A stretch of DNA of 64,000 nucleotides from an uncultured Phycisphaerae bacterium (GTDB lineage Bacteria; Planctomycetota; Phycisphaerae; Sedimentisphaerales; Anaerohalosphaeraceae), in NCBI GenBank assembly GCA_937949545.1, contig CALEDR010000018.1, forward strand, positions 1-64,000, in the 5' to 3' direction. Positions 46,203 through 61,851 of this stretch are shown one piece after another (position 1 is the first letter of the stretch; each line of letters starts with the position of its first letter). The notes beneath the pieces were generated by a model that was not told the DNA's origin, did no database searches, and saw nothing but the letters and a program-made list of their open reading frames with translations. The translations under genes were made by a program, and so were the position numbers.

Positions 46203-46334
46203 GGCCTGTTCTCCTGATTCGGACCGCTTTTTTTGCAAATTTCGTCGGCCTGCTTACCTTGCTGTATAGAATGGATTATATTGTCTGGTATCCAGGGGAG
46301 AAAGGAAAAAACTATCGGAGCTGAAAAGGAGAGG

Positions 46335-49196
46335 ATGATGCCGCTCGATTCAAAAAGATGGCATGTCGTCATTGTGGGTCTTTTAACGGCGGTTTTTGGG
46401 GGTTCCTGCCAACAGCAGACCGTCCCGCCCTCTGTCTCCGGAACAGTAAAAGTTCTCCACAATGGAATTGAATGGACGAACGGACAATCCTTCACACGAA
46501 TCAGTTTTTACGGAGACAACAAAGTTCGGGTGATAAAATGGGTAAAACCTGCAGCACCCGAACCCAACAGTTTGGTTGTTATTGCTTCCAAACCGGAGCG
46601 GGTAAAGCTGTCTCTGGCTGAAGATGCTTTTCAGTTTGTTCTCTGCACTAACAAGCTCACAGTCCGCCTGTCCAAAGAAGACGGCACAATCGAATATCAG
46701 GATGCCGCCGGACAAACCCTGTTAAAGGAGCAAGGCCCCCCCGCTATTCATCCGGTTGAGATTCCCTATGAAACAAACGTATTCAGTCTGGAACAGCGGT
46801 TCACCCTGCGGCCGGAGGAGGGTTTATATGGTCTCGGCCAGCATCAGGACGGGATGATGAACTATCGGGGGCGGACAGTAACGCTGGTTCAATCCAACAC
46901 CGAAGCCGCCATTCCGTTTCTGATTTCTACCGGCGGATGGGGCATTCTTTGGGACAACTATTCGAAAACCGTTTTTTCTGATGGGACCGGCGGGATGTCA
47001 TTCCATTCGGAAGTCGGCCGTCAGATGGATTATTATTTCATCACAGGCCGCACGATGGATGAGGTGATCGCAGGGTATCGAGATCTGACCGGACAGGCCC
47101 CGCTGTACGGACGATGGGCCTACGGCTACTGGCAAAGCAAAGAACATTACAAGACCCGCCAGGAGCTGCTGGGGGTGGCGGAGGAATACCGCCGGCGTCA
47201 AATCCCGATTGACAATCTCATCCAGGACTGGAATTACTGGGGCGGGACTAACAACTGGGGCGGATTGTTTTTCGACGAAAGCCGCTATCCGAATCCCAAT
47301 CAGATGGTGGACCTGCTCCATCAGATGAATTATCACCTGATGATTTCCATCTGGCCGGGATTGGGACCGGATACAGCTGTTTTCAGAGAAATGGACCAAC
47401 GCGGTTATCTGTATCCGCCGTTCGGCTGGGCCGGCTTTAAATACTATGATGCCTACAACCCACAGGCCAATGCCGTGTATTGGAACTATCTGAAAGAAGG
47501 GCTCGTTTCCAAAGGGATTGACGGCTGGTGGATTGATTCGACGGAACCGGATGTGATTAACGCCCTCACCAAAGAGGGAACGGAGGCGTGGCTGAAAACT
47601 ATCGGCAGGAACCATCGCGGTTCTTTCGCCCGCTATCTGAACACGTATTCGCTGGTTATGACGGACGCACTTTACCAAAACTTACGAAAAGAAAATGAAC
47701 AGAAACGGGTCTATATCCTGACACGTTCAACTTTTGCAGGCCAGCAGCGAAACGCTGCGACAACCTGGTCGGGGGATATCGGAGCCAGCTGGGAGACGTA
47801 TCGCAAACAGATTTCCGCCGGCTTAAATCACTGCATGGCCGGGGTGCCTTACTGGACCTTTGACATCGGCGGCTTTGTGATTGGAAGTTACGGCGGGGTC
47901 TTCTCCAACGGCGGCAAAGACCCGGCCTACCAGGAACTCTATACACGAATGTTTCAGTTTGGGGCCTTTTGTCCGATTTTCCGGGCCCACGGCTCAGAGA
48001 CCCCGCGGGAAATCTGGGAGTTTGGGGACTTTACCGATACACTGATTCAGTTTGACCGGCTTCGGTATCGGCTCCTGCCTTATATCTATTCGCTGGCCTG
48101 GCGCATCACCCGTGAGGGCTATACCCTGATGCGGGGACTGCCGATGGATTTTGCCGACGACCGGCGAACCTACTCGATAACGGATGAATTTATGTTTGGC
48201 CCGGCCCTTCTGGTCTGCCCGGTTACGGAGTATATGCAGCATCGTCCGCCGGAAGACAGCATTTTGATTGGTCCCGAGCATTTCCGCACCCCGGACGGCA
48301 AACGCGGACTGAAAGCGACCTACTGCAACGATGCAAACTTCCAGCAGGTCTGCCGGGAACAAATCGAACCAAATATCAATCTGTTCTGGTACACCGGCTG
48401 GCCGGACTTTATTGAGGACGAGACCTTTTCTATGCGGTGGGAAGGCAAACTGATTCCGACGCAAACCGGGCCGCATCGGTTTCATATGAAAAGTTTCGGA
48501 CCCAAACGGCTGTTTCTGGACGGGAAAGAGGTGCCCTGCAATTATTGGTCGGTGGAGTTTTACACGGTTCCGGTCGAACTGGAAGCAGGCAGGGCCTATG
48601 ATTTTGCCTTTGAAACCTCCAATTCTGTCTTAGGGGCCTTTCGGGCTCAGCTGTACTGGAAAACTCCGGATATTCACCATCGCGAAAAACAAACGGAACC
48701 GCGAAAGCAGACCCGTGCGGTTTACCTGCCGACGGGAACGGAGTGGGTGGACTTCTGGACGGGAAAAAGGGTTGCAGGCGGACAAACGATCGAAGCTGAT
48801 GCGCCGATTGACAAAATCCCGCTGTATGTCCGCGCCGGTTCCATTATCCCAATGGGGCCGTTTATCCAGTATGCCGCGGAAAAACCGGCGGACCCGATTG
48901 AGCTTCGAATCTACCCGGGCGCTGACGGCTCTTTTGTCCTCTATGAGGACGAAAACGACGGATATGATTATGAAAAAGGAGCGTACAGCACCATCGAGTT
49001 TCGATGGAACGAACAGAAAAAGACCCTGACGATTGGGGAACGAAAAGGCAGCTTCGACGGAATGCTCGAAAACCGAACCTTTCAGGTTGTCTTTGTCCGG
49101 GACAATCACGGAACCGGCATAGACATCACGAAACAGCCGGATGCCCTCATCTACTACAGCGGAGCCCCGCGGCAGTACGTCTGGAAAAAGCCGTGA
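46335..49196 (+). CDS. Secreted GH31 alpha-glycosidase with PA14 domain (alpha-xylosidase-like)
   Basis: Lipoprotein glycosidase of about 953 residues. Start at ATG-ATG 46335 (AAGGAGAGG upstream); lipobox-like FGGSC near residue 25. Order: N-terminal sandwich, catalytic barrel with nucleophile Asp near 400 (WWIDSTEPDV) and acid/base Asp near 481 (WSGDIGASWE), then a PA14 domain at about 650-775 set into the C-terminal sandwich region, then the rest of that region. GH31 with PA14 includes xyloglucan-acting alpha-xylosidases. Sugar specificity is inferred, not proven. First gene of the glycan region. Confidence 0.92.
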   Translation: MMPLDSKRWHVVIVGLLTAVFGGSCQQQTVPPSVSGTVKVLHNGIEWTNGQSFTRISFYGDNKVRVIKWVKPAAPEPNSLVVIASKPERVKLSLAEDAFQFVLCTNKLTVRLSKEDGTIEYQDAAGQTLLKEQGPPAIHPVEIPYETNVFSLEQRFTLRPEEGLYGLGQHQDGMMNYRGRTVTLVQSNTEAAIPFLISTGGWGILWDNYSKTVFSDGTGGMSFHSEVGRQMDYYFITGRTMDEVIAGYRDLTGQAPLYGRWAYGYWQSKEHYKTRQELLGVAEEYRRRQIPIDNLIQDWNYWGGTNNWGGLFFDESRYPNPNQMVDLLHQMNYHLMISIWPGLGPDTAVFREMDQRGYLYPPFGWAGFKYYDAYNPQANAVYWNYLKEGLVSKGIDGWWIDSTEPDVINALTKEGTEAWLKTIGRNHRGSFARYLNTYSLVMTDALYQNLRKENEQKRVYILTRSTFAGQQRNAATTWSGDIGASWETYRKQISAGLNHCMAGVPYWTFDIGGFVIGSYGGVFSNGGKDPAYQELYTRMFQFGAFCPIFRAHGSETPREIWEFGDFTDTLIQFDRLRYRLLPYIYSLAWRITREGYTLMRGLPMDFADDRRTYSITDEFMFGPALLVCPVTEYMQHRPPEDSILIGPEHFRTPDGKRGLKATYCNDANFQQVCREQIEPNINLFWYTGWPDFIEDETFSMRWEGKLIPTQTGPHRFHMKSFGPKRLFLDGKEVPCNYWSVEFYTVPVELEAGRAYDFAFETSNSVLGAFRAQLYWKTPDIHHREKQTEPRKQTRAVYLPTGTEWVDFWTGKRVAGGQTIEADAPIDKIPLYVRAGSIIPMGPFIQYAAEKPADPIELRIYPGADGSFVLYEDENDGYDYEKGAYSTIEFRWNEQKKTLTIGERKGSFDGMLENRTFQVVFVRDNHGTGIDITKQPDALIYYSGAPRQYVWKKP

Positions 49197-50750: not shown

Positions 50751-53543
50751 TCAGGGCAGCCTTGACCGAAACCGATATTGCCCGGATGGAACAAGAATCA
50801 CCGCACGGCCGCTCTGAATCCGAAGGAAAGAAACGGCTTTGGAATGCCGTAGGGAACTTCCATTCAGGCAGATTTCATCCGGACTGTCTGCCGGCAGTGC
50901 CGCCTCCGCTGTGGTATTGCAGGGGACCGTCAGGTCAAGAACAAACTCTTTTTCCCTGCAAGACCAGATGACTTCAATCAGGCCGTACAGCGAGCGGTAC
51001 GTCCCGCTGCACCATTGCAGGTCCTCAACCGGTTCCGGCCAAATAAGAAACGTGCGAAAACCGGGCTCCTCCGGATGCGGACGAATCCCGACAAGACCCT
51101 GCCCAAACCACTGCTGGATATGGCCCAACATCAGATGATTCATCGAGGAGGTTGTTGTCGCATCCCAGGCCTCCGGCAGGGAAGTCCAGCCCTGCTGAAG
51201 AATCCAGCCGTAGCTCCCCACGTCCGTGCGGCTCGCGATCCGATACAGAACATCAGAACGTCCGGCCTCCATCAATGCACGCACAAGATAATGAAACCCG
51301 ATATCGCCGGCGGTCTGCTGCCAGTTTCGCTGCCGAAGGTCCTCGATAAGCGTTTCCAGAACCGACGAGCGGGCCTCCTGCGGCGGCAGAGAGAACACCA
51401 GAGCCATTGCATTGGCCGTCTGGGGGCTTCCCGAGTTCCGATAGACCGCCGTGCCGTCGAAAAATTCGCTGTTGAAACGACTTCTTATTTTTTCGCAAAG
51501 GCCGCTGTACCGGCGGACATCCTCTGGTTTTCCGAGCACCTTGGCGGCTTCGGCAAGCACCTGCGCACAGCCGGCAAAGGTTGCCGCAGCCGTCAGCGTT
51601 TTCGGCGTAAAGCGGGACGGCCCCAGCGATTGGCCGTGCCCATAATCATACCAATCCCCCAAACCCGGAATGGGAATCAGGTTGTCGGAAGTCGCCTCCA
51701 TCCAATCGACAAACCGCTTCATCATTTCGTAGTTCTCTTCGAGGATGCGCCGGTCTTCATACCATTGAAATGTCAGCCAGGGTACAAAAACACCTGCGGC
51801 CCCCCACTCGGGGCTGTACTGGTAGGCCCCTTCAAAAACAGGAAAACCGGGAGCTACGGTGAAAATCTGCCCGCTTGAGTCCTGCGAATCCCGGATATCT
51901 CGTACGATTTTTCCGAAGTATGCCGCCGCATCATAATTCCCGAAAATCGACGGCCCCATCAAATAGGCCTGTTCGAGCCAGCCGAGTTTCTCCCGTTGGG
52001 GGCAATCCGTCAGGACATGAGCCATATTGCTCTGCACAGCCCAGTCAATCAGACGGTCAATATCGTTGAAAAGGGGCTTGGAGCAGGCGAATGTGCCGAC
52101 CCGCTCGGAAGCATTCCGCACCTGCACGGCCGACAAGTCCTTAACAACAGGCAGACCCGACGGATTTGGAAATCCCTCCGGAACAGCACCGGAGATTTCC
52201 AAATACTGAAAGCCGGTATAACAAAAGGCATCCGTCCAGATTTCTTCCCCATCCCCCCGCAGGGTATATTCCCAATAATTTGGTCTGCCCAGGCCCGCCT
52301 GATTAACACGGCCCCTGCCGTTGTTGGTGTTACCGGTCTGTCCGTGCCGCTGCTCCGCAGGTGTCATCCGCACCGTCGATCCAGCGGGCCCCGAGACGGT
52401 AATCTGCGGCACAAAGGAGGCATTTTGTCCGAAATCATATACAAAAAATCCCGGCTCCGGCTCCTCAATCTTAACCGGTTTAAAGACTCGTACAGCCTTC
52501 ATCGGAGGAAACATGGAGGCGGATAACCGACCGCCCGGGCCGTCAGTCCGCTCAGCCGAAGACCACTGGGAATCATCAAACCCCGGCTCCGCCCAGCCGG
52601 CCGGAAGACGTCGGGCGTCATAGCTGCTGCCGCCGAGAATGGCGTTGTGAACATAAGGACCGCCCGTCCATTTCCAGGAATCATCCGAACAAACAATCTG
52701 TTCCGAACCGTCTTTGTAAACAATCCGGGCCTGTAAAATGAATTTTAAAGGACCATTCTTTTTGACAAAATGAATGCGGCGGTCTCCTTGAGTATTGTAA
52801 AAGCCCTTCCCGAGCATCAGGCCAAAGGCATTTTGCCCTTCGCGAAGAGATTTGGTAATATCGAATGTATTGTAATAGACTGTCTTTTTATAAACCGACC
52901 AAGCTGGATCCAGAAAATGGTCGCCAACTTTGCCGCCGTTCAGATACAGCTCATAATGTCCCAGCCCGCTGACAAAGACAAAGGCCTTTTGAATGCCGGC
53001 TTTTACGACAAAAGGTCTTCGGAAAATCGGCAGCGGATAAAGCGAAGATTGAGGCTGTGAGGCCTGAATCCATTCGGCCTTCCAATCTTGGTCATTCAGA
53101 AGACCCGTCGTCCAGCGAGCCGGCCGGCTCCAAGCGGAGCGGCGGCCCTTTCGGTCCCAGACCCGCACCGTCCAAAAATAGGAAGTGGCAGACTTGAGCG
53201 GCGGGCCTGCATACTCCACATTCACAGACTGACCGGACTGAACCTTTCCGCTGTCCCAGATATCTGCTCGACCCTCCGCCAGGTTTTGTTCAGACGAAGC
53301 AACACGCATCTGATAAGCAGACTGGAAAACCCCCTGCCGTGCCGAATGGATAACCCAGCTTAGACGAGGTCTGGGTGTATCGATTCCCAGCGGGTCAGCC
53401 AGATACTCGCATCGCAAAGAATCAACCGTAAAACCAGTCTGGTCAGAAGAGCCCAGAAAAAGCTGACAGCCCCCGAAAAAGAGGCCTGTTAAAACAGCAA
53501 GCCAGCAGCCCCAAAAAGTCCATTTTTCGAATGGAACAATCAT
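50751..53543 (-). CDS. Secreted GH78 alpha-L-rhamnosidase
   Basis: 930-residue lipoprotein (lipobox FFGGC near residue 26) predicted to release L-rhamnose from pectin side chains or glycosides. Domains: Ig-like start (LRCEYLADPLGIDTPRPRLSW), beta-sandwich carbohydrate modules, and an (alpha/alpha)6 catalytic barrel with the GH78 signature TDCPQREKLGWLEQ, whose acidic residues carry catalysis. A C-terminal sandwich follows. Its ATG overlaps the esterase stop by 4 bases, so esterase and rhamnosidase are co-translated. Confidence 0.94.
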   Translation of the reverse strand: MIVPFEKWTFWGCWLAVLTGLFFGGCQLFLGSSDQTGFTVDSLRCEYLADPLGIDTPRPRLSWVIHSARQGVFQSAYQMRVASSEQNLAEGRADIWDSGKVQSGQSVNVEYAGPPLKSATSYFWTVRVWDRKGRRSAWSRPARWTTGLLNDQDWKAEWIQASQPQSSLYPLPIFRRPFVVKAGIQKAFVFVSGLGHYELYLNGGKVGDHFLDPAWSVYKKTVYYNTFDITKSLREGQNAFGLMLGKGFYNTQGDRRIHFVKKNGPLKFILQARIVYKDGSEQIVCSDDSWKWTGGPYVHNAILGGSSYDARRLPAGWAEPGFDDSQWSSAERTDGPGGRLSASMFPPMKAVRVFKPVKIEEPEPGFFVYDFGQNASFVPQITVSGPAGSTVRMTPAEQRHGQTGNTNNGRGRVNQAGLGRPNYWEYTLRGDGEEIWTDAFCYTGFQYLEISGAVPEGFPNPSGLPVVKDLSAVQVRNASERVGTFACSKPLFNDIDRLIDWAVQSNMAHVLTDCPQREKLGWLEQAYLMGPSIFGNYDAAAYFGKIVRDIRDSQDSSGQIFTVAPGFPVFEGAYQYSPEWGAAGVFVPWLTFQWYEDRRILEENYEMMKRFVDWMEATSDNLIPIPGLGDWYDYGHGQSLGPSRFTPKTLTAAATFAGCAQVLAEAAKVLGKPEDVRRYSGLCEKIRSRFNSEFFDGTAVYRNSGSPQTANAMALVFSLPPQEARSSVLETLIEDLRQRNWQQTAGDIGFHYLVRALMEAGRSDVLYRIASRTDVGSYGWILQQGWTSLPEAWDATTTSSMNHLMLGHIQQWFGQGLVGIRPHPEEPGFRTFLIWPEPVEDLQWCSGTYRSLYGLIEVIWSCREKEFVLDLTVPCNTTAEAALPADSPDEICLNGSSLRHSKAVSFLRIQSGRAVILVPSGQYRFRSRLP

Positions 53544-54454
53544 TTTGGCTTTCCAGAATTGTCGTTTTTTCCCTGTAGGTGCTTTTCGAGGAATTCTCGG
53601 GTCAGCCGCGGAACATTCGGGTCGCGAAAGGTACCATGGCCGCCTCCTTTGACGGTATAGAAAATCACCGGTACCCCCGCCTGTCGAAGGGCCTCATCCA
53701 GCAGAATGCTCTGATGATAAGGCACAACCGGGTCCTGGTCGCCGTGGACAATCAGGAACGGGGGATCTTTCGGGGACACATAGGTGATTGGATTGGCTTT
53801 CTGGACCTTGTCCTTATTTTCCTGAATCGGTCCGCCGATGAGCAGCGAGGCCGGCGAATCAGGGGAATTGTGAACCATCCCGCCCGGCAGGCGGTGGTCG
53901 TCCATCTGCAGAAAATCCGTCGGCCCGAAATAATCGACAACGGCCTGCACCGCACTGGAAAACTCAAGATGCTCTCCCTTGTCGAACTCTTTCGTATCGC
54001 CGGTTACGCCCAGCATAGCCGCCAGATACCCACCGGCCGAAGGCCCCCAGGCGGCGATATGATTGGGGTCTATCCGGTAGTCCCCTGCATGGCGTCGAAG
54101 CCAGCGGACCGCCGCCTTACAGTCCTCAATCTGGGCCGGAAATTTGGCGTGCTGACTGAGACGATAATTGATCGACGCAACGGCATAGCCGTCCCTGACA
54201 TACTCCAGCGGAACTCCCTGTTCCTTGCTGCCCGCCAGAAAGGCCCCGCCGTGAATATAGACAATCAGGGGAAAATTCTCTCCTTCGGCGGGCAGATACA
54301 AATCCAGCTTCTGCCGTTCGTGACCGCCGGCCACGTAAGCCAAATCCCGATAAACCGGTCCGGCCTTCTTATCAGAAAGGTCAGAGGGAGAGCCGGCCAT
54401 ACCAAGGGAAAAAACCAGCCACGGTGTAAGAAGAACAAAATAACGGAAAGACAT
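53540..54454 (-). CDS. Secreted carbohydrate esterase (alpha/beta hydrolase)
   Basis: 304 residues with signal peptide (about 1-21). HGG oxyanion motif (VYIHGGAFLAG), nucleophile Ser139 in GPSAGG, Asp in HGDQDPVVP and His in GGGHGTF complete the triad. It resembles BD-FAE and acetyl-esterase-like hydrolases that strip acetyl or feruloyl groups from plant polysaccharides. Coupled to the downstream rhamnosidase, suggesting they act on the same decorated substrate. Confidence 0.9.
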   Translation of the reverse strand: MSFRYFVLLTPWLVFSLGMAGSPSDLSDKKAGPVYRDLAYVAGGHERQKLDLYLPAEGENFPLIVYIHGGAFLAGSKEQGVPLEYVRDGYAVASINYRLSQHAKFPAQIEDCKAAVRWLRRHAGDYRIDPNHIAAWGPSAGGYLAAMLGVTGDTKEFDKGEHLEFSSAVQAVVDYFGPTDFLQMDDHRLPGGMVHNSPDSPASLLIGGPIQENKDKVQKANPITYVSPKDPPFLIVHGDQDPVVPYHQSILLDEALRQAGVPVIFYTVKGGGHGTFRDPNVPRLTREFLEKHLQGKNDNSGKPK

Positions 54455-54482
54455 AATCAGACCCCTTTCTATAAATCAAAAT

Positions 54483-54656
54483 CGGAGAGGGCGGGATTCA
54501 CTTCGCGGCTCCTTCGATGTCGAACCCGCCTCATGACGCACCTGCATCCTGCGGGTTCTCATCCCACCGGGAGAAAATTAAGTCGATTCCCCTGTCGAGA
54601 ACACATACCCTTTTCCCCTATGCCAACCGCCCGACAAACCGGAGAGGGCGGGATTC
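54483..54656. repeat. 17-base direct repeat of the tRNA-Ser 3' end
   Basis: CGGAGAGGGCGGGATTC occurs at 54483-54499 and again at 54640-54656, the second being the 3' end of tRNA-Ser (minus strand). After the first copy, 22 bases intervene and then GAACCCGC, also found in the tRNA T arm, appears. The segment between (about 140 bases) has GC-rich inverted pieces and no gene. It looks like a degenerate partial tRNA copy, possibly left by an integrating element. Confidence 0.6.
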
Positions 54657-54727
54657 GAACCCGCGGTAGAGACAAGCCCTACACAGCCTTTCCAAGGCTG
54701 CTCGATCAGCCACTCCGACACCTCTCC
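54641..54727 (-). tRNA. tRNA-Ser (GGA)
   Basis: 87-nt type II tRNA: acceptor GGAGAGG/CCTCTCC, anticodon loop TTGGAAA reading GGA, a long variable arm, and T arm GGGTTCGAATCCC. CCA is not encoded. Confidence 0.96.
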
Positions 54728-54784
54728 AAACACTCGGGCTATCTTACCGGTAAAAAGGACGGGATGCAACCGGAAAAATCCGGT

Positions 54785-55264
54785 TTATCGCTCGATGTTT
54801 TCGCTTCTCCGGCGGTGGAAAAAGGCCTGCAGCTGCGCCCGGCAGTCGTCGGCCAAAATTCCGGAGGTCACTTCGAGGCGGTGATTCAGACGCGGGTCCT
54901 GAACAAGATTGTACAGACTGCGGACGGCTCCGGTCTTCGGGTCATCTGTTCCGTAAACCAGCCGGTCCAGTCGGGCCAGCACCAACGCCCCCGCACACAT
55001 CGGACACGGCTCGAGCGTCACATAAATCGTACAGCCGTTCAGCCGCCAGTTGCCGATGTATTCAGCCGCCTGCGTCAGAGCGATGATTTCCGCATGAGCC
55101 GTCGGGTCGTTGAGCTGCTCCCGCTGATTATAGGCCCGTGCAATCACACGGTCTTCATACACAATCACACAGCCGATCGGCACATCGCCGTTTTCTTCGG
55201 CAATATAGGCCTGGTCAATGGCCATCCGCATATACTGTTCATCTTTGGACAAGGGACCTTCCAT
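54785..55264 (-). CDS. tadA: tRNA-specific adenosine-34 deaminase
   Basis: Converts A34 of tRNA-Arg to inosine. 159 residues; zinc site His57, Cys87, Cys90 with catalytic Glu59 ([16 protein letters not shown]). [10 protein letters not shown] matches the family. Lies 13 bases after the stop-side neighbour at 55278 and before tRNA-Ser, in the same direction. Confidence 0.95.
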
Positions 55265-55277
55265 TCTTTGCCCTTCG

Positions 55278-58200
55278 TCAGTTCAGCCGAATTGTCAGGG
55301 GCTCCAGATTTTCCGAGGCGGCGATTTTACAGCCGTCCAAATAGACAGACAAGCCCTTTCCCCGCCCATACCGCAGGCCCGTTCGGTCCCACAGAATCGT
55401 CAGGGTATGTCCTCGGAAGGGAACCTTGTCCAGGCAGAACCAATCCCAGCGTTCCTGCGGGACAAGCGGGTCAATCAGAATATCTTCTCCTTCCGAAGGC
55501 ACCAGTCCCGCCAGACCGGTGATGACCAGGTCGCAGAAGGTCGAATGATTGTAAAAGCGGCTTCGGTTGGTATCCGGCGTCAGCCAGGCGCCTGTCTTTT
55601 CGTCGAGATATTCCCCGATATAGGGCTTGCCGTCGCGGCGGTGACTTCGGGCATATGTAAGCATGGCCTCGAAGAAATCTTTTCGACTGACATAAGACTG
55701 CGAATAACAACGAAGCAGATTCGCCATCGCCGTTAACGTTTGACTGGTCGCAAACGGCCAGACAGCCCCGTCCCATTCGCAGGTGCCGACCCCATGACTG
55801 CGAAAAGCCGGGTGCCGCCGCTCGGCTGTCGTAAGCCCGAAGGGAGCCCAGAAGCCCTCCGGATCGGTCAGCTGCCGCCAGGCCTCCTCAAATCCGGCAT
55901 CCGGCAGATTAAAATACCAGGGAATAAACCCGATGGCCTCGCGAACATCCGCCGGCGTCATATCAGGACGAAGAACCTTAAAAAACTTCGCCTGAGGGTC
56001 CCACAGATGCTTCTGAATCAGTTCTTTGAGCCGGGCGGCCTGTTCCGCATATTCACGGGCCAAAGAGTCACGTCCCGCCATCTGGGCGATTTTCGAGACC
56101 GCCAGCATATCGGCGTACAAATAGCAGTTCAGCGGGGGACGAATGTTTTTCTCTTTTCGAGAGCCGCTGATGGATTCCTCCATCCCATCCCGTACATCAA
56201 ACTGCCAAAAAAGACCGTTCTCCAGACCCTTTTCCTTTCGCCAGCGCTCCACGTCCTCGACAAATGCATCCAGCAGGCCGATCAGAAAATCTCTGTCCCG
56301 ATGAACCCAATACCGCCGATACAGTGCCCATGTGGCCCAGTTGCTGTATTTGTGAAAATGAGGCTGAAGGGAGCCGTTGTGTCCGGTGTACCAAAACCGG
56401 GCATAGTCATCGAGAAGCCGCTGGTCCCGCAGCCACGTTCCCTCATAAATATGATGTCCGACGGCACAGCTGATGGTATTGAAAGATCCGCTGTGGCTGA
56501 CCTTATCGAGAAACTCCGTAAGCACAAAACCGCCCGGCGTCTGCTTAATATGCTTGCGGAAGGTCCACCAGCGGAAATAGTAAATCTCCTCCAGTTCCTT
56601 GTCGGGACATTCGAAAAAAGGGATATTCCGGTTCATCCATTCCCAGGCCTGCGCATTCGAAACCGCATTGACAATCGGTTCCTCGTCCGTTTGATTGAAG
56701 ACATCGACATAGCGGCGAAAGGAGTCCGGATTCAGGACAGACTCCGCCATAGTCTCTGTCCGAAAATCCCGGAGATAAAAGACGGCCGGCGCAACCGGCT
56801 CATCTGCTCCGGGTTCATCCCAGCCGGGAATGAATTCGCTGCCGCTTTTGTACTTCTGGACATCGTCCGTCAGCCGATACCGACCTGTGCGAAACTCAAT
56901 TCGATGAGGAGCCCCTTCCGGCATTCCGAACGAGATTTTTTGCAGAAGAGGTTTCTCATCCAAGAAGAAATCAAAACAACGGTTTTTCGAATCGATTTGA
57001 AACCGGAATGTATGCCATTGCTCTTGAACCAATTTGACAAAAGAACGGTATTCTCCGGATTCCGGATTGAAAAGAAGACCGTTCCGCTGCGTATCGATTC
57101 GCAGCGGAATCAGCCGCTCCCCTTTTTCGGAAAGGATTTCAATATCCAGCTCCTCCCGCGGAGACTGGACATACAAACGGAAGGAAAGCGAAAGGCGGGG
57201 GCTTTTCTGAAAGACCCGGACCGCCTTGGCATAATCATAGGGGTCCGTGTCCTTGAGCATCAGGCTTTTTTCCGTCCGGCTCGGAAACTCTGCGATTTCT
57301 ACCGGGCACCACTGGGGCGAATAAATGTTCCAGTCCGGGACATATCCGCCGGTCTCCATTCGGCTGAAATCATCAAAAACCGGTCCTTCGACCCGCCCTT
57401 TGATCGGAACAGGAATGCGGGCAATCCAGATGTCTTCTTTGTTGACGGAGTACACAACCCAAAGGTCATCGCCCGGAGGGTTGCCGTTGCCCTCAACAAT
57501 CCCGCGAACGTACTGCGGGCCGGGCCGCTTTTCCCGGCCCCAATACCGCTTGGGAGGCACTTCCCCATGCACCACAAGGAGATTGTCAAAATGAATTCCA
57601 TCCTCCCCTGTTGCGACACACAGCGGATGACGCGCCTCGCTGCCCGTCGGATTATAAACCAGCGCATACCGCCCGTCATCCGTGCGCTGCCCCCAGATTT
57701 TGGCCCCGCCATAGGTGAGCGTTTCGCAGCGAACCGGATAGGACCACGTCTCGCCCTGGTCGCGGCTGATGGTAACCCAGCGGTCTTTGAAAAACCCTAC
57801 AATCACTCCGTCCGGACGGGTATAAAAGCAGAAGGCCTTGCCGGGCTTGTTGCGTCCCTGAGGCGGAGGCCACGTCACCCGATAAAATTCGTCGCGGTCC
57901 TGCGCAAACTGGTCTTCCTCCCACCACTGGAGACGGCGAACCTTGTCTTCCAAAAAAGCCTTGCACCCAAAAACAAAACCGACATCATTTGATTCCGTAT
58001 AAAGCGGATACAACAAGGGTCCTTTCCAGTTGTCATTGACCCGAATGAAGTAAATCGGACCTAACGAATCATCCGGACGGATTTCGCGAACCACCCTGCC
58101 GATGCCGTCGCCGTACGGCGAGCCGTAAAAGCCCATCGTCAGAAACCGCCCGTTGGGAGCGATGTAAAACCCCATCCTCTGATGCATATAGGGATAGGTG

Positions 58201-58655
58201 ATTTGAGCTTTTTCATCCGCCAGCGGATAGATGGGAAACAAAACCTGCGGGCGGCTCCAGTGCCGGCCGTCTTTGGAACGGACAAGCATCGTGGCCCCGG
58301 GCGGGATATGCTCTCCAAAAGGATTGTTCAAATACTGACAATAAAACTGTCCGTTCGCATAGGCCAGCATCGGCGCATGATTGTACGTCCAGCCCAGCCC
58401 GTCTGACCATTCCGGATGGCTTCGATTGGCCCGCAGAATCTGATAATTATGAACCCCGACGGCGGGCGGCAGTTGACCGTCGTGGTAGCCGGTTTTGTAG
58501 TCGCTGTTGGAGGTTTTTACCGCTCCGACAAAGCGAACCGGCTCCTGTTCATCCCCCGCCGACCAGAGCAGTCCGGACAGAAACAGAACAAAACCGGTCA
58601 AGAGTCGGAAATAATTCCCCGAATTTTTGATTGACAGGCCGGATGATTTGAACAT
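55278..58655 (-). CDS. Secreted multidomain glycan hydrolase: sialidase-like propeller, jelly roll and (alpha/alpha)6 barrel
   Basis: 1,125 residues with an N-terminal signal. Residues about 40-430 look like a BNR/sialidase-type beta-propeller (repeats such as [34 protein letters not shown]). About 440-640 resembles a concanavalin-like sandwich ([18 protein letters not shown]). About 680-1080 is an (alpha/alpha)6 barrel resembling GH63/MGH1-like hydrolases ([14 protein letters not shown]; acidic [10 protein letters not shown]). I do not know a characterised enzyme with this order. It lies in a rhamnosidase/xylosidase neighbourhood, so a plant or algal polysaccharide is likely. Linkage is unknown. 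Confidence 0.8.
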
Positions 58656-58704: not shown

Positions 58705-61700
58705 TTATCTCTTGAGTATCCAATACAAAGCAGGGGGTTCCGTCGTCCATTCCGTCTGCTTGGTCGTGTGAACAGAAGCGATCTGACCGGCTTCCAAATC
58801 AACTCGGCGGATTTCAAACGTTTCTCCCTCCTTTGGCACAGGCAAAGGCAGTTCCTTTCCTTCCGCCACATAAACCAGATATTGTTTCGGCACTTCAGCC
58901 AGAGCAAAACAGCGGGCCGAATCCCCGGGCCAATCGAACGGCTTCATTTTAACAACCGCCTCCAAAAGCGAAGGTTCGGTCTTCGGCGGCAGCGGAGGCA
59001 GAGAACCGCCTCCCAGCAGCACAGCCCATCCGAAACGGCTGTCCGCTGAATAAATAACCGCTTTGTCCGGATACCGCTCTCGATATTCCCGAACCGCCCG
59101 AAGGGTCTGCTCAAAGGAGGTCGGCTTGGGGTTGAGCAGGCGGGCATGCTGTCGAGGCGCCAACTGTCTGCCCCCCTGCGGAGCATACAGCACTCCGTTT
59201 GACTGATACCACCAATACCGTATATCAATCACAGAAACGAGTTCTCGATATTGCGGTTCGGACAAAATCACATCCTGAACGTCTTTAGTGCAGCTCAGAG
59301 CAATCAGCGGATTTTTCCGCTTTTCCTCTTTCCATTGCCGGATTGTATCCAGCCAAAAACGGACAAACTCCGCCGGACCTGTATATTCCGCCGACGTCAT
59401 CTGAACCACATTTGTATGGTCCGCAAACGCATCCAGACATTGGCGGATATACGCCTGATGCAGGGCACGACGGCCGGGATGACTGACATCATAAAACAGA
59501 TGTGCCAGAAAGATCCGCTTATCACCGGCATACGGCGGCGGCTCCGGAAAACCTGTGTCGTTGATGTTGTTGGCCGGCCGCCACGGAAAATCCGCCCAAT
59601 GGGCCCCGGCCTCCAGCACATTGTGCTGAAAATAGTTGTGGTGCAGCAGAACCAGCCCCTTTTGCTCGCACAAATCCGCAAACTCTTCCAGACGGGCCCA
59701 ATACCAGGCGTTATAGCGGGTCAAATCATACCGGCTCAGTCCGTCCCAGGCAGTCCCGATTCCGCTGCGGTCAAAGGGCTGTTCGTAAAACGGCGGACGG
59801 ACATCCCCATTCATCCGGCGGATACGCTGATGGTCATCCCGCCGCCGGTCGTACCAAAGGCCGTAATTGTAATCCAGCACCGTTTTGCCGGATGCCGCCA
59901 TTTCAGATGTCAATTCCTCCAAATCATCCGTAAACCCCCGGCCGATTCGGCCCGGAACAAACCGGGTAATCCCGATGCCGAAAGACGGGGCCTCATCCGG
60001 ACGCGTTGTCCCCCTCCACCAGGCAACCCCCGTGCTGGCACCGGCCAGCAGACGCCCTCGACAGACAATCCGTCCGTTAACAAGGGAAATCCGCTTGTCC
60101 GGCGGATTGGCGGAAACAGTTCGGTTCGTCGTTTCATCCCAAACCTGCTCCAGCGGCTGTGCAGCGGAAATGTCGGAGACAATCGGATATTCCTCCGTCA
60201 ATTTCCAAATAAACTCCGCCAGGGTCGGCATCGGTTTTGAAGAGGCAGCCGCCAGTTCCGCCGCTAATTCATAAGAAGGGTTTGTCGTACCGGATGTGTC
60301 AATTTTCCACAGACGAATCCGATTTGCCGCCTCTTTGCCCAGCCGCCGGGCCAACTGGGCCTGATAGAGACTGTCGGGCTTGACAAAGCTGTTGGACTGC
60401 TCCCACCAGCCGTCACCTTCGAATTCCGCCCAGCATCCGAACGCCCAGTTCCAGGCGGTCGGGGGTTTGGCGCATTCGATGATCGCCGCCTCACACTGCC
60501 AGAGAACACAATTCGCACCGCTCCACCCAATCCCCTCACCTCGGCTGCCGCGATGGCCTACCCGCAGGGCGTTCCCGTCAATTCGGACATTGTCGTAGAG
60601 AACGCCGCAGGCCCAGCTTTCCAGCGGCCCGCTGTCTTCCAGCGGCTCCTTCGCCCAGCATTGCACGAATGCATTCGGCCCCGGTGCACAATGCCCGACG
60701 GAAAAATCGTGCCGCCCCCGCTCAGACCAGCACCGAAGAAAAAGGGTCATCTGCCCCATGGTAAAAAAGGGATTCCTTCGCCAGCCGCCTTCCTCGGATA
60801 CGGGCTCCAGAGACAGGCAATCCTCCACCGTAACCCATTTGGCGGTTTCCCACACCGCCGCCAGCGAACCGGCAAAATGAACAGCCGTCAAGCGGCGAAC
60901 CCAGACGTTTTCCGCATTCTCAATCGTAACGACCATCCAGGAATGATTCTCATCCTTCGGGTTGGCCCGATTGTATTCCGAAACACAGCGGAGATTTTCC
61001 ACCCCGACATGATGAATCCGTCCGGGCCATTGGTATTTCTGCACGGTGCCGCCGCCCCACCGCTGCTCGAGGGCCGCCGTCAGCGGGGCATCCAGAACGA
61101 CCCGCCCGCCGTCAACGGCACGAATCACCCGATCCCACCGAATATCCCGAGAGCCGGCCTTCCAGGCAAACTGGCCTTTGAGCCCGCCGCCGAACCGATT
61201 CATTCCGATATGCTCAATCCATTCCGGCGTGCTGGGTCGGGTAATCACCACCGGATCCCCGACGGAAAGCCCCTCCGTATTCTCCAGACGAAGAGAATAT
61301 GAGCCGACTGGGACAATTTCATCCTGAACCCGAACCGCCTGCCCCGCTCCGCACCGGTCATTCTTTCCTGCAATCCGGATAAAAGTTCTGCGGTCCGTGC
61401 CGGCGGCAATCAGGACCGTGCCATCCTCGTCCATTCCCTCGCCGCGCAAAACCACACCGGACGAGCGCAGAATCAAGCCGCCCTGCAGGATATATCGCCC
61501 CCGACGCAGAAGCACAGCTCCCCGAAAGCCGTCTGCATTCAAGGGAAGCAAAGACACATAATCAACGGCCGCCTGAACCCGTGCGGTATTATCCCCCTCA
61601 ACGGGTTCGACAATGACTCGTACAGGCACATTGGGAATCGGCTTATCCCCCCCTTCATACCCGCAGTGAGAAAAATCCGGAATCCGATTGCCCTGCGAAT

Positions 61701-61851
61701 CGGTGCCGCACTGAAGGGTTTCATTCGAATCAATTTTAAGGAAAAACTCAGGCGCTTGATTCTCTGCTCCGGCAGCTGTCCATGACAAAAAAACCAGCTG
61801 AAGCAGAAAACCACCGGCCGAGGCGGAAAAAAATTTCTTCATCGAAAACAA
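58705..61851 (-). CDS. Secreted beta-helix plus barrel-like protein (resembles DUF6298 proteins)
   Basis: 1,048 residues, signal peptide ending near AAGA. About 60-560: right-handed parallel beta-helix of the pectate-lyase type (GAVLLRRGRYILQGGL, SSGVVLRGEGMDEDGTVLIAAG, and many short V-x-N/C-x-F turns). About 590-960: a barrel-like region with conserved GITRFVPGRIGRGF, DYNYGLWYDRRRDDHQR and many aromatic and acidic residues, like a glycoside-hydrolase TIM barrel; I associate it with DUF6298, from memory. A small sandwich ends it. Activity unknown. Probably co-transcribed with the 1,125-residue hydrolase downstream (49-base gap). Confidence 0.78.
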   Translation of the reverse strand: MFSMKKFFSASAGGFLLQLVFLSWTAAGAENQAPEFFLKIDSNETLQCGTDSQGNRIPDFSHCGYEGGDKPIPNVPVRVIVEPVEGDNTARVQAAVDYVSLLPLNADGFRGAVLLRRGRYILQGGLILRSSGVVLRGEGMDEDGTVLIAAGTDRRTFIRIAGKNDRCGAGQAVRVQDEIVPVGSYSLRLENTEGLSVGDPVVITRPSTPEWIEHIGMNRFGGGLKGQFAWKAGSRDIRWDRVIRAVDGGRVVLDAPLTAALEQRWGGGTVQKYQWPGRIHHVGVENLRCVSEYNRANPKDENHSWMVVTIENAENVWVRRLTAVHFAGSLAAVWETAKWVTVEDCLSLEPVSEEGGWRRNPFFTMGQMTLFLRCWSERGRHDFSVGHCAPGPNAFVQCWAKEPLEDSGPLESWACGVLYDNVRIDGNALRVGHRGSRGEGIGWSGANCVLWQCEAAIIECAKPPTAWNWAFGCWAEFEGDGWWEQSNSFVKPDSLYQAQLARRLGKEAANRIRLWKIDTSGTTNPSYELAAELAAASSKPMPTLAEFIWKLTEEYPIVSDISAAQPLEQVWDETTNRTVSANPPDKRISLVNGRIVCRGRLLAGASTGVAWWRGTTRPDEAPSFGIGITRFVPGRIGRGFTDDLEELTSEMAASGKTVLDYNYGLWYDRRRDDHQRIRRMNGDVRPPFYEQPFDRSGIGTAWDGLSRYDLTRYNAWYWARLEEFADLCEQKGLVLLHHNYFQHNVLEAGAHWADFPWRPANNINDTGFPEPPPYAGDKRIFLAHLFYDVSHPGRRALHQAYIRQCLDAFADHTNVVQMTSAEYTGPAEFVRFWLDTIRQWKEEKRKNPLIALSCTKDVQDVILSEPQYRELVSVIDIRYWWYQSNGVLYAPQGGRQLAPRQHARLLNPKPTSFEQTLRAVREYRERYPDKAVIYSADSRFGWAVLLGGGSLPPLPPKTEPSLLEAVVKMKPFDWPGDSARCFALAEVPKQYLVYVAEGKELPLPVPKEGETFEIRRVDLEAGQIASVHTTKQTEWTTEPPALYWILKR

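Follow-up and report, generated by a model that had tools for sequence, protein, structure and literature searches.

The 64,000-nt stretch of DNA analysed here (the window; contig CALEDR010000018.1 of an uncultured Phycisphaerae bacterium) carries a gene for a bimodular protein that is very likely a planctomycete GH143-GH142 enzyme working like BT_1020 of Bacteroides thetaiotaomicron, with chain D of RG-II as its most likely substrate. We observed that the protein has the BT_1020 architecture, is homologous to BT_1020 from end to end, keeps most of the published pocket residues and is encoded in a pectin-related genomic setting. The enzyme is of a known type, and what is new here is its planctomycete member; since it shares ~50% identity with one characterised enzyme, its specificity may have changed.

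Architecture and relation to BT_1020

The gene is a single frame of 1125 aa with an ATG start and no internal stop, spanning exactly 55278-58655 on the minus strand (Table 1), and the genome search found one copy. In two congeneric genomes, G042 and G081, the frame is likewise uninterrupted, at 92 and 93% identity, so that it is a real gene and not a chance ORF. The closest named record is a Planctomycetota MAG (L001) with a 93% identical protein. Antisense frames at 53579-55522 (+), of 647 aa, and at 55740-57992 (+), of 750 aa, were regarded as shadows. By eye, a hydrophobic stretch at about residues 15-33 resembled a Sec signal peptide, and the protein looks secreted as judged from its N-terminus. 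Pfam placed Beta-prop_BT_1020 (PF24067) at residues 51-258 (E 1.3e-81), BNR_2 at residues 291-363 (E 5.7e-8) and MGH1-like_GH (PF22422) at residues 726-1038 (E 3.6e-82). This confirmed the bimodular order, with GH143 first, the Sialidase-like_CBM between, and GH142 in the same chain. A propeller and an (alpha/alpha)6 barrel within one secreted-looking protein had been proposed by the sequence-only reading, and the intact ORF, the Pfam domains and the BT_1020 match bore this out.

Table 1. Positions in the window of the fused gene, its domains and the neighbouring genes.
Feature	Positions	Strand	Evidence or remark
GH143-GH142 fusion gene, BT_1020-like, 1125 aa	55278..58655	(-)	ORF; phmmer; Foldseek
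Probable Sec signal peptide, residues 1-33	58557..58655	(-)	sequence reading; low-confidence model helix 12-36
GH143-type sialidase-like beta-propeller, ~residues 51-415, predicted Dha hydrolase module	57411..58505	(-)	Pfam, BT_1020 alignment
Sialidase-like_CBM beta-sandwich, residues 442-599	56859..57332	(-)	PF22585, E 6.9e-27
GH142-type (alpha/alpha)6 barrel, ~residues 640-1045, predicted beta-L-arabinofuranosidase module	55521..56738	(-)	PF22422, BT_1020 alignment
C-terminal beta-sandwich behind barrel, residues 1059-1108	55332..55481	(-)	PF03633 Glyco_hydro_65C, E 2.2e-7
Upstream same-strand neighbour, 1048 aa, beta-helix-like N-terminal half, then DUF6298	58705..61851	(-)	PF19815
DUF6298 domain of this neighbour, residues 481-969	58945..60411	(-)	PF19815, E 4.6e-214
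tadA	54785-55264	(-)	13 bases downstream of fused gene
tRNA-Ser	54639-54728	(-)	
BD-FAE type alpha/beta-hydrolase, possible acetyl or feruloyl esterase	53540..54454	(-)	PF20434, E 3.3e-72
GH78-type alpha-L-rhamnosidase	50751..53543	(-)	PF17389, E 4.7e-87, and four more rhamnosidase domains
GH31 protein	46233-49196		MalA 221.9 bits (cut-off 800); alpha-xylosidase 215.7 bits (cut-off 606)

The best phmmer match among solved structures was BT_1020 (5mqr/5mqs; 5mqr_A), which aligned end to end over residues 55-1117 with E 4.5e-300. Taken separately, the propeller matched BT_1020 with E 1.6e-107 (194 of 365 aligned residues identical, 53%) and the barrel half with E 7.8e-170 (query 6-478 of 486; 240 of 472 aligned residues identical, 51%), so that the GH143 homology covers the whole propeller and the GH142 homology the whole barrel and C-terminal sandwich. 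Structure prediction, proposed earlier as a check, gave the same answer: with the AF2 model of the fused protein (18 alignment rows, mean pLDDT 75.7, pTM 0.61), Foldseek returned 5mqr, titled 'Sialidase BT_1020', in first place (E 3.5e-96). In the sequence-match record the same chain carries the label beta-L-arabinobiosidase. The sequence-only reading had called the specificity unknown, had known of no characterised match, and had named a close characterised homologue as refuting evidence; BT_1020 is such a homologue. We found no point in favour of a protein that lacks both a characterised relative and a known specificity, and the sequence and Foldseek matches to BT_1020 refute that reading.

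Besides domain order (propeller, Sialidase-like_CBM, barrel, C-terminal sandwich), the two proteins share about half of their residues over almost the full length, as well as the pocket Glu, Gly, Trp and His. They differ in that the gene described here is planctomycete, has His721 for the BT Tyr702, carries insertions and deletions in the propeller, adjoins the DUF6298 gene and tadA, and belongs to a separate fused lineage. The second Foldseek match was the GH121 beta-L-arabinobiosidase HypBA2 (6m5a; E 2.2e-19), with which the GH142 barrel of BT_1020 has also been compared (PMC7263609). HypBA2 has a related barrel and C-domain, including a stretch similar to the C-terminal sandwich, but only 15% identity in the Foldseek alignment, and its sole significant sequence match was at residues 1044-1117. 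GH63 and MGH1-like barrels are of the same kind, and Pfam calls the domain MGH1-like; membership of GH63 itself was rejected, since YgjK (GH63) matched only with E 9.4e-10 and 13% identity by Foldseek, and the family is GH142. The propeller shares its sialidase-like fold with the retaining sialidases of Trypanosoma and Akkermansia (Foldseek matches), and PMC6811678 states a Tyr/Glu pair for GH143 like that of retaining sialidases; in contrast to these, GH143 is described there as having a five-fold propeller and the seven-carbon acid Dha as its substrate.

In B. thetaiotaomicron, BT_1020 is described as first removing L-arabinofuranose from chain D of RG-II and next releasing Dha from the backbone (PMC6811678), chain D being a disaccharide with a beta-1,5-Araf terminus (PMC12282258). 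By analogy with BT_1020, on which both activities, their order and their mechanism are modelled, the C-terminal GH142 barrel would remove the terminal beta-1,5-linked L-arabinofuranose of chain D, and the GH143 propeller would then, once the arabinose is gone, free Dha from the RG-II backbone. An earlier guess that the protein cuts two linkages of one glycan agrees with these published activities, and, among the substrates then listed, the relationship to BT_1020 supports rhamnogalacturonan in the form of RG-II; none of the matches led to ulvan or fucoidan.

Conserved residues and substrate specificity

Five residues of BT_1020 have been reported near bound beta-L-Araf, given as close to the ligand and not as catalytic (Glu694, Tyr702, Gly805, Trp943 and His1019), in the study that characterised the GH142 barrel and the residues around the bound arabinose (PMC7263609). 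Four of the five are kept in the fused protein (E714, G824, W961 and H1037); the exception is BT Tyr702, which corresponds to H721. A chain index shifted by +1 fitted four of the published labels, and Glu694 fitted only without the shift, which points to a one-position error in either one published label or the numbering. Across the alignment of 38 GH142 rows, E714, W961, H1037, D823 and E826 were invariant, and the G824 position was Gly in 34 rows and Ala in 4. At position 721 we found His in 26 rows, Trp in 7 and Tyr in 5, with Tyr confined to Bacteroidota rows; a residue other than Tyr is thus common to planctomycete and acidobacterial rows and is no defect of this gene. Among 27 GH143 rows, H93, E115 (one gap), R160, D224, K273, K290, K319, R342, D352, R370, Y382, R384 and K406 were invariant, the Tyr, Arg, Asp and Glu positions agreeing with BT_1020 and the stand-alone GH143 genes being included. 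As far as could be tested, a loss of catalytic residues from both modules, which the sequence-only reading had listed as evidence against it, was not seen.

Beta-propellers can be lectins, and on this general ground the barrel alone might be catalytic, with the propeller as its binding module. We regard such a bind-and-cut protein as highly improbable: the propeller of BT_1020 is itself described as a Dha hydrolase (PMC6811678), and the Arg, Tyr, Asp and Glu positions of the propeller were invariant in all 27 rows but for the gap at Glu.

The variation at position 721 raises another possibility, namely that the planctomycete branch, with His or Trp for the BT Tyr702, acts within the same family on a related but different linkage, for example that of a beta-L-arabinofuranoside carried by a different 3-deoxy-ulosonic acid or by an algal glycan. 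Dha is not confined to the RG-II of land plants and is also present in some green algae. GH142 modules moreover occur without GH143, joined to GH127 in L009 and to a GH43-like domain in L043, indicating that they serve more than one context. However, the fused propeller groups with the BT-like GH143 sequences, away from a distant GH143 group, and the locus of a relative (L014) is RG-II-like in its gene content (DUF6298, GH140-type apiosidase, GH143, GH142 and GH141). We consider a shifted specificity unlikely.

Fusion history of GH143 and GH142

We searched 397 genomes of the class, taken from a larger group, and found a GH142 or GH143 match at E <= 1e-30 in 54. Both halves occurred together in 10 of these (G000, G042, G081, G087, G210, G253, G390, G222, G035 and G324), including G222, whose C-terminus lies at a contig end, G035, whose N-terminus is cut by a contig end, and G324, which is split over two frames. 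The other 44 had one half per gene; the weakest matches among them (G370 and G382, 29 and 32% identity) may belong to other families. Relatives in both phyla also have GH143 and GH142 as two genes. Stand-alone GH143 frames of the BT_1020 kind (L011, L014, L041 and L042) consisted of propeller and CBM, and stand-alone GH142 frames of barrel and sandwich; in the distant GH143 group, 5 of 7 rows had no CBM match.

Phylogenies were built from 38 GH142 and 27 GH143 rows, with fused rows named before tree building; L015, L016, L022 and L048 (a fragment or duplicates), identical rows and rows covering <75% of the domain were left out. By starred branches, the fused or split label changed at least 4 times on the GH142 tree and at least 2 times on the GH143 tree, and a constraint placing all fused rows in one clade was rejected for the barrel (AU p 3.9e-9) and for the propeller (AU p 4.0e-10). 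Simple descent of one fused gene was thereby discarded for both domains. As the trees are unrooted, they fit separate fusion events as well as an old fusion that split repeatedly. All nine planctomycete fused propeller rows fell into one clade (100/100); the barrels of two of them, L023 and L024, were not in the starred set, which comprises the other nine fused barrels (two nearly identical) and seven split ones. This displacement of barrels relative to their propeller clade suggests an exchange of the barrel half.

Several further arrangements were seen among the loci. In L009:7844-11458 (+), a single frame of 1205 aa encodes a GH127 module followed by GH142, and a GH43-like C-terminal module follows GH142 in L043:1354-3930 (+) by Pfam and in L039, L044 and L045 by length, these four rows having Trp at the place of BT Tyr702. 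Three adjacent GH143-type genes occur in each of two planctomycete genomes (L061:1880-7890 and L060:2-5966), the outer two of the L060 run being cut by the locus ends. The fused gene of L006:2603-6024, found again in L025, breaks into two overlapping frames within the CBM, which looks like a frameshift or an assembly error; this copy was labelled fused by hand in the trees. Near GH142, two Bacteroidota loci (L011:14537-15685 and L014:11465-12568) carry a single-domain BNR_2 sialidase-like protein (~298 bits), a possible Kdo or Dha hydrolase.

Genomic setting and the DUF6298 neighbour

On the minus strand the genes run in the order DUF6298, GH143-GH142, tadA, tRNA-Ser, BD-FAE esterase and GH78. 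The neighbourhood had been described as one of rhamnosidases and xylosidases: the GH78-type rhamnosidase stands, but a xylosidase is unestablished, as the GH31 protein scores nearly equally as alpha-glucosidase MalA and as alpha-xylosidase. The window order is kept in L058, from the same genus, and in L001, where extra unannotated ORFs (~14.0-19.2 kb of L001) lie between tadA and the tRNA; both retain GH78 and the BD-FAE esterase. DUF6298 and the fused gene are separated in L002 and L003 by an apiosidase-like gene (DUF5060/PF13204/DUF5605), and a GH78-like gene comes next (by Pfam in L003; by blastp, 31% identity, in L002). The Bacteroidales locus L014 reads DUF6298, GH140-type apiosidase (392 bits), GH143, a gene without clear family, and GH142, and continues with BNR_2, an esterase/isomerase-like gene, GH141 and a DHDPS-family gene. 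tadA also adjoins the fused gene in a Prevotella MAG (L012:701-1168 (+)), there on the upstream side; its adjacency in both places is probably a coincidence. A scan for promoters and terminators stayed near chance (8 vs 5.6 +/- 2.8 and 18 vs 17.0 +/- 5.0).

The window's genome also carries GH78, GH95, GH2 and PL1-type genes, and we counted five GH127, two GH106, two apiosidase-like and two GH141-like genes; a search for GH115 gave 0 matches. One stretch of contig C21 (~87-128 kb) holds GH95, PL1-type, apiosidase-like, GH127, GH2, GH78, sugar kinase, transketolase, L-fucose-isomerase-like, GH141-like, SSF transporter, rhamnose mutarotase and GH65 genes, GH106 and the second GH141-like gene being on other contigs. 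The fused gene, on contig C18, lies apart from most other pectin genes found (C21, C9 and C25). B. thetaiotaomicron uses several of these families on RG-II, and likewise GH137, GH138 and GH139.

In planctomycetes of several families, and in one locus from Bacteroidales, DUF6298 lies near GH142/GH143. Strong matches (E <= 1e-140, a cut-off chosen after the list had been inspected) were present in 17 of the 397 class genomes, and all 17 were within the 54 with GH142/GH143 (hypergeometric 1.6e-16); the 17 come from families f1, f2, f4, f13 and f16, and their shared ancestry inflates this and the other DUF6298 p-value. Most strong frames were ~1000 aa or longer; that of G363 had only 561 aa and that of G324 was broken by a contig end, and without G363 the count was 16 of 16. 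Looser matches gave lower shares: 6 of 7 genomes in a middle group (E ~1e-122 to 1e-128) were among the 54, as were 15 of 47 with weak partial matches only, and at E <= 0.001 GH142/GH143 accompanied DUF6298 in 37 of 70 genomes. The converse was weak, with a strong match in 17 of the 54 GH142/GH143 genomes. As a control, GH106 (E <= 1e-30) was present in 94 genomes, of which 36 belong to the 54, and the association of strong DUF6298 exceeded that of GH106 (Fisher p 7e-7). GH106 itself was enriched, and 14 of the 17 strong-DUF6298 genomes also carried it; a shared pectin lifestyle thus accounts for part of the DUF6298 link. The distance to GH142/GH143 was <=10 kb in 11 of the 17 genomes; in 4 the genes were on different contigs and in 2 on the same contig, 62.7 kb and 4.0 Mb apart.

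The N-terminal half of the DUF6298 neighbour was weakly similar to beta-helix pectin lyases (7chu, E 1.8e-4; NF058554, E 4.7e-6) and is probably a beta-helix. Its AF2 model, from 7 sequences with a mean pLDDT of 50.6, matched GH5-like barrels, BT_1012 (5msy_B, E 2.7e-6) and beta-helix lyases, matches that are hints only at such model quality. BT_1012 is the apiosidase of PMC7939467. No sequence relation of the neighbour to GH140 apiosidases emerged: no PF13204 match at E <= 1 was found in 7 DUF6298 members, and hhalign of DUF6298 against five apiosidase-like proteins gave a non-significant probability of 5.3%. In the literature searched we found no mention of DUF6298. We regard the neighbour as a candidate unrecognised RG-II enzyme. 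We tentatively propose, giving the whole slightly less than an even chance, that this protein, with its probable beta-helix and DUF6298, is an RG-II enzyme partnering the chain D enzymes, and that the GH143-GH142 fusion has been repeatedly made or broken in two phyla, its two reactions being sequential on one disaccharide. The DUF6298 link and the non-monophyletic two-enzyme fusion together offer a concrete lead, open to testing, towards a pectin enzyme that may be missing.

RG-II ranks with the most complex glycans of plants, and the RG-II enzymes of the literature cited here come from gut Bacteroides; PMC7922503 assigns its RG-II group E chiefly to Acidobacteria and Bacteroidetes. With a full-length chain D enzyme of the predicted kind in a 2.8-Mb planctomycete that carries further pectin-related genes, this capacity would reach another phylum.
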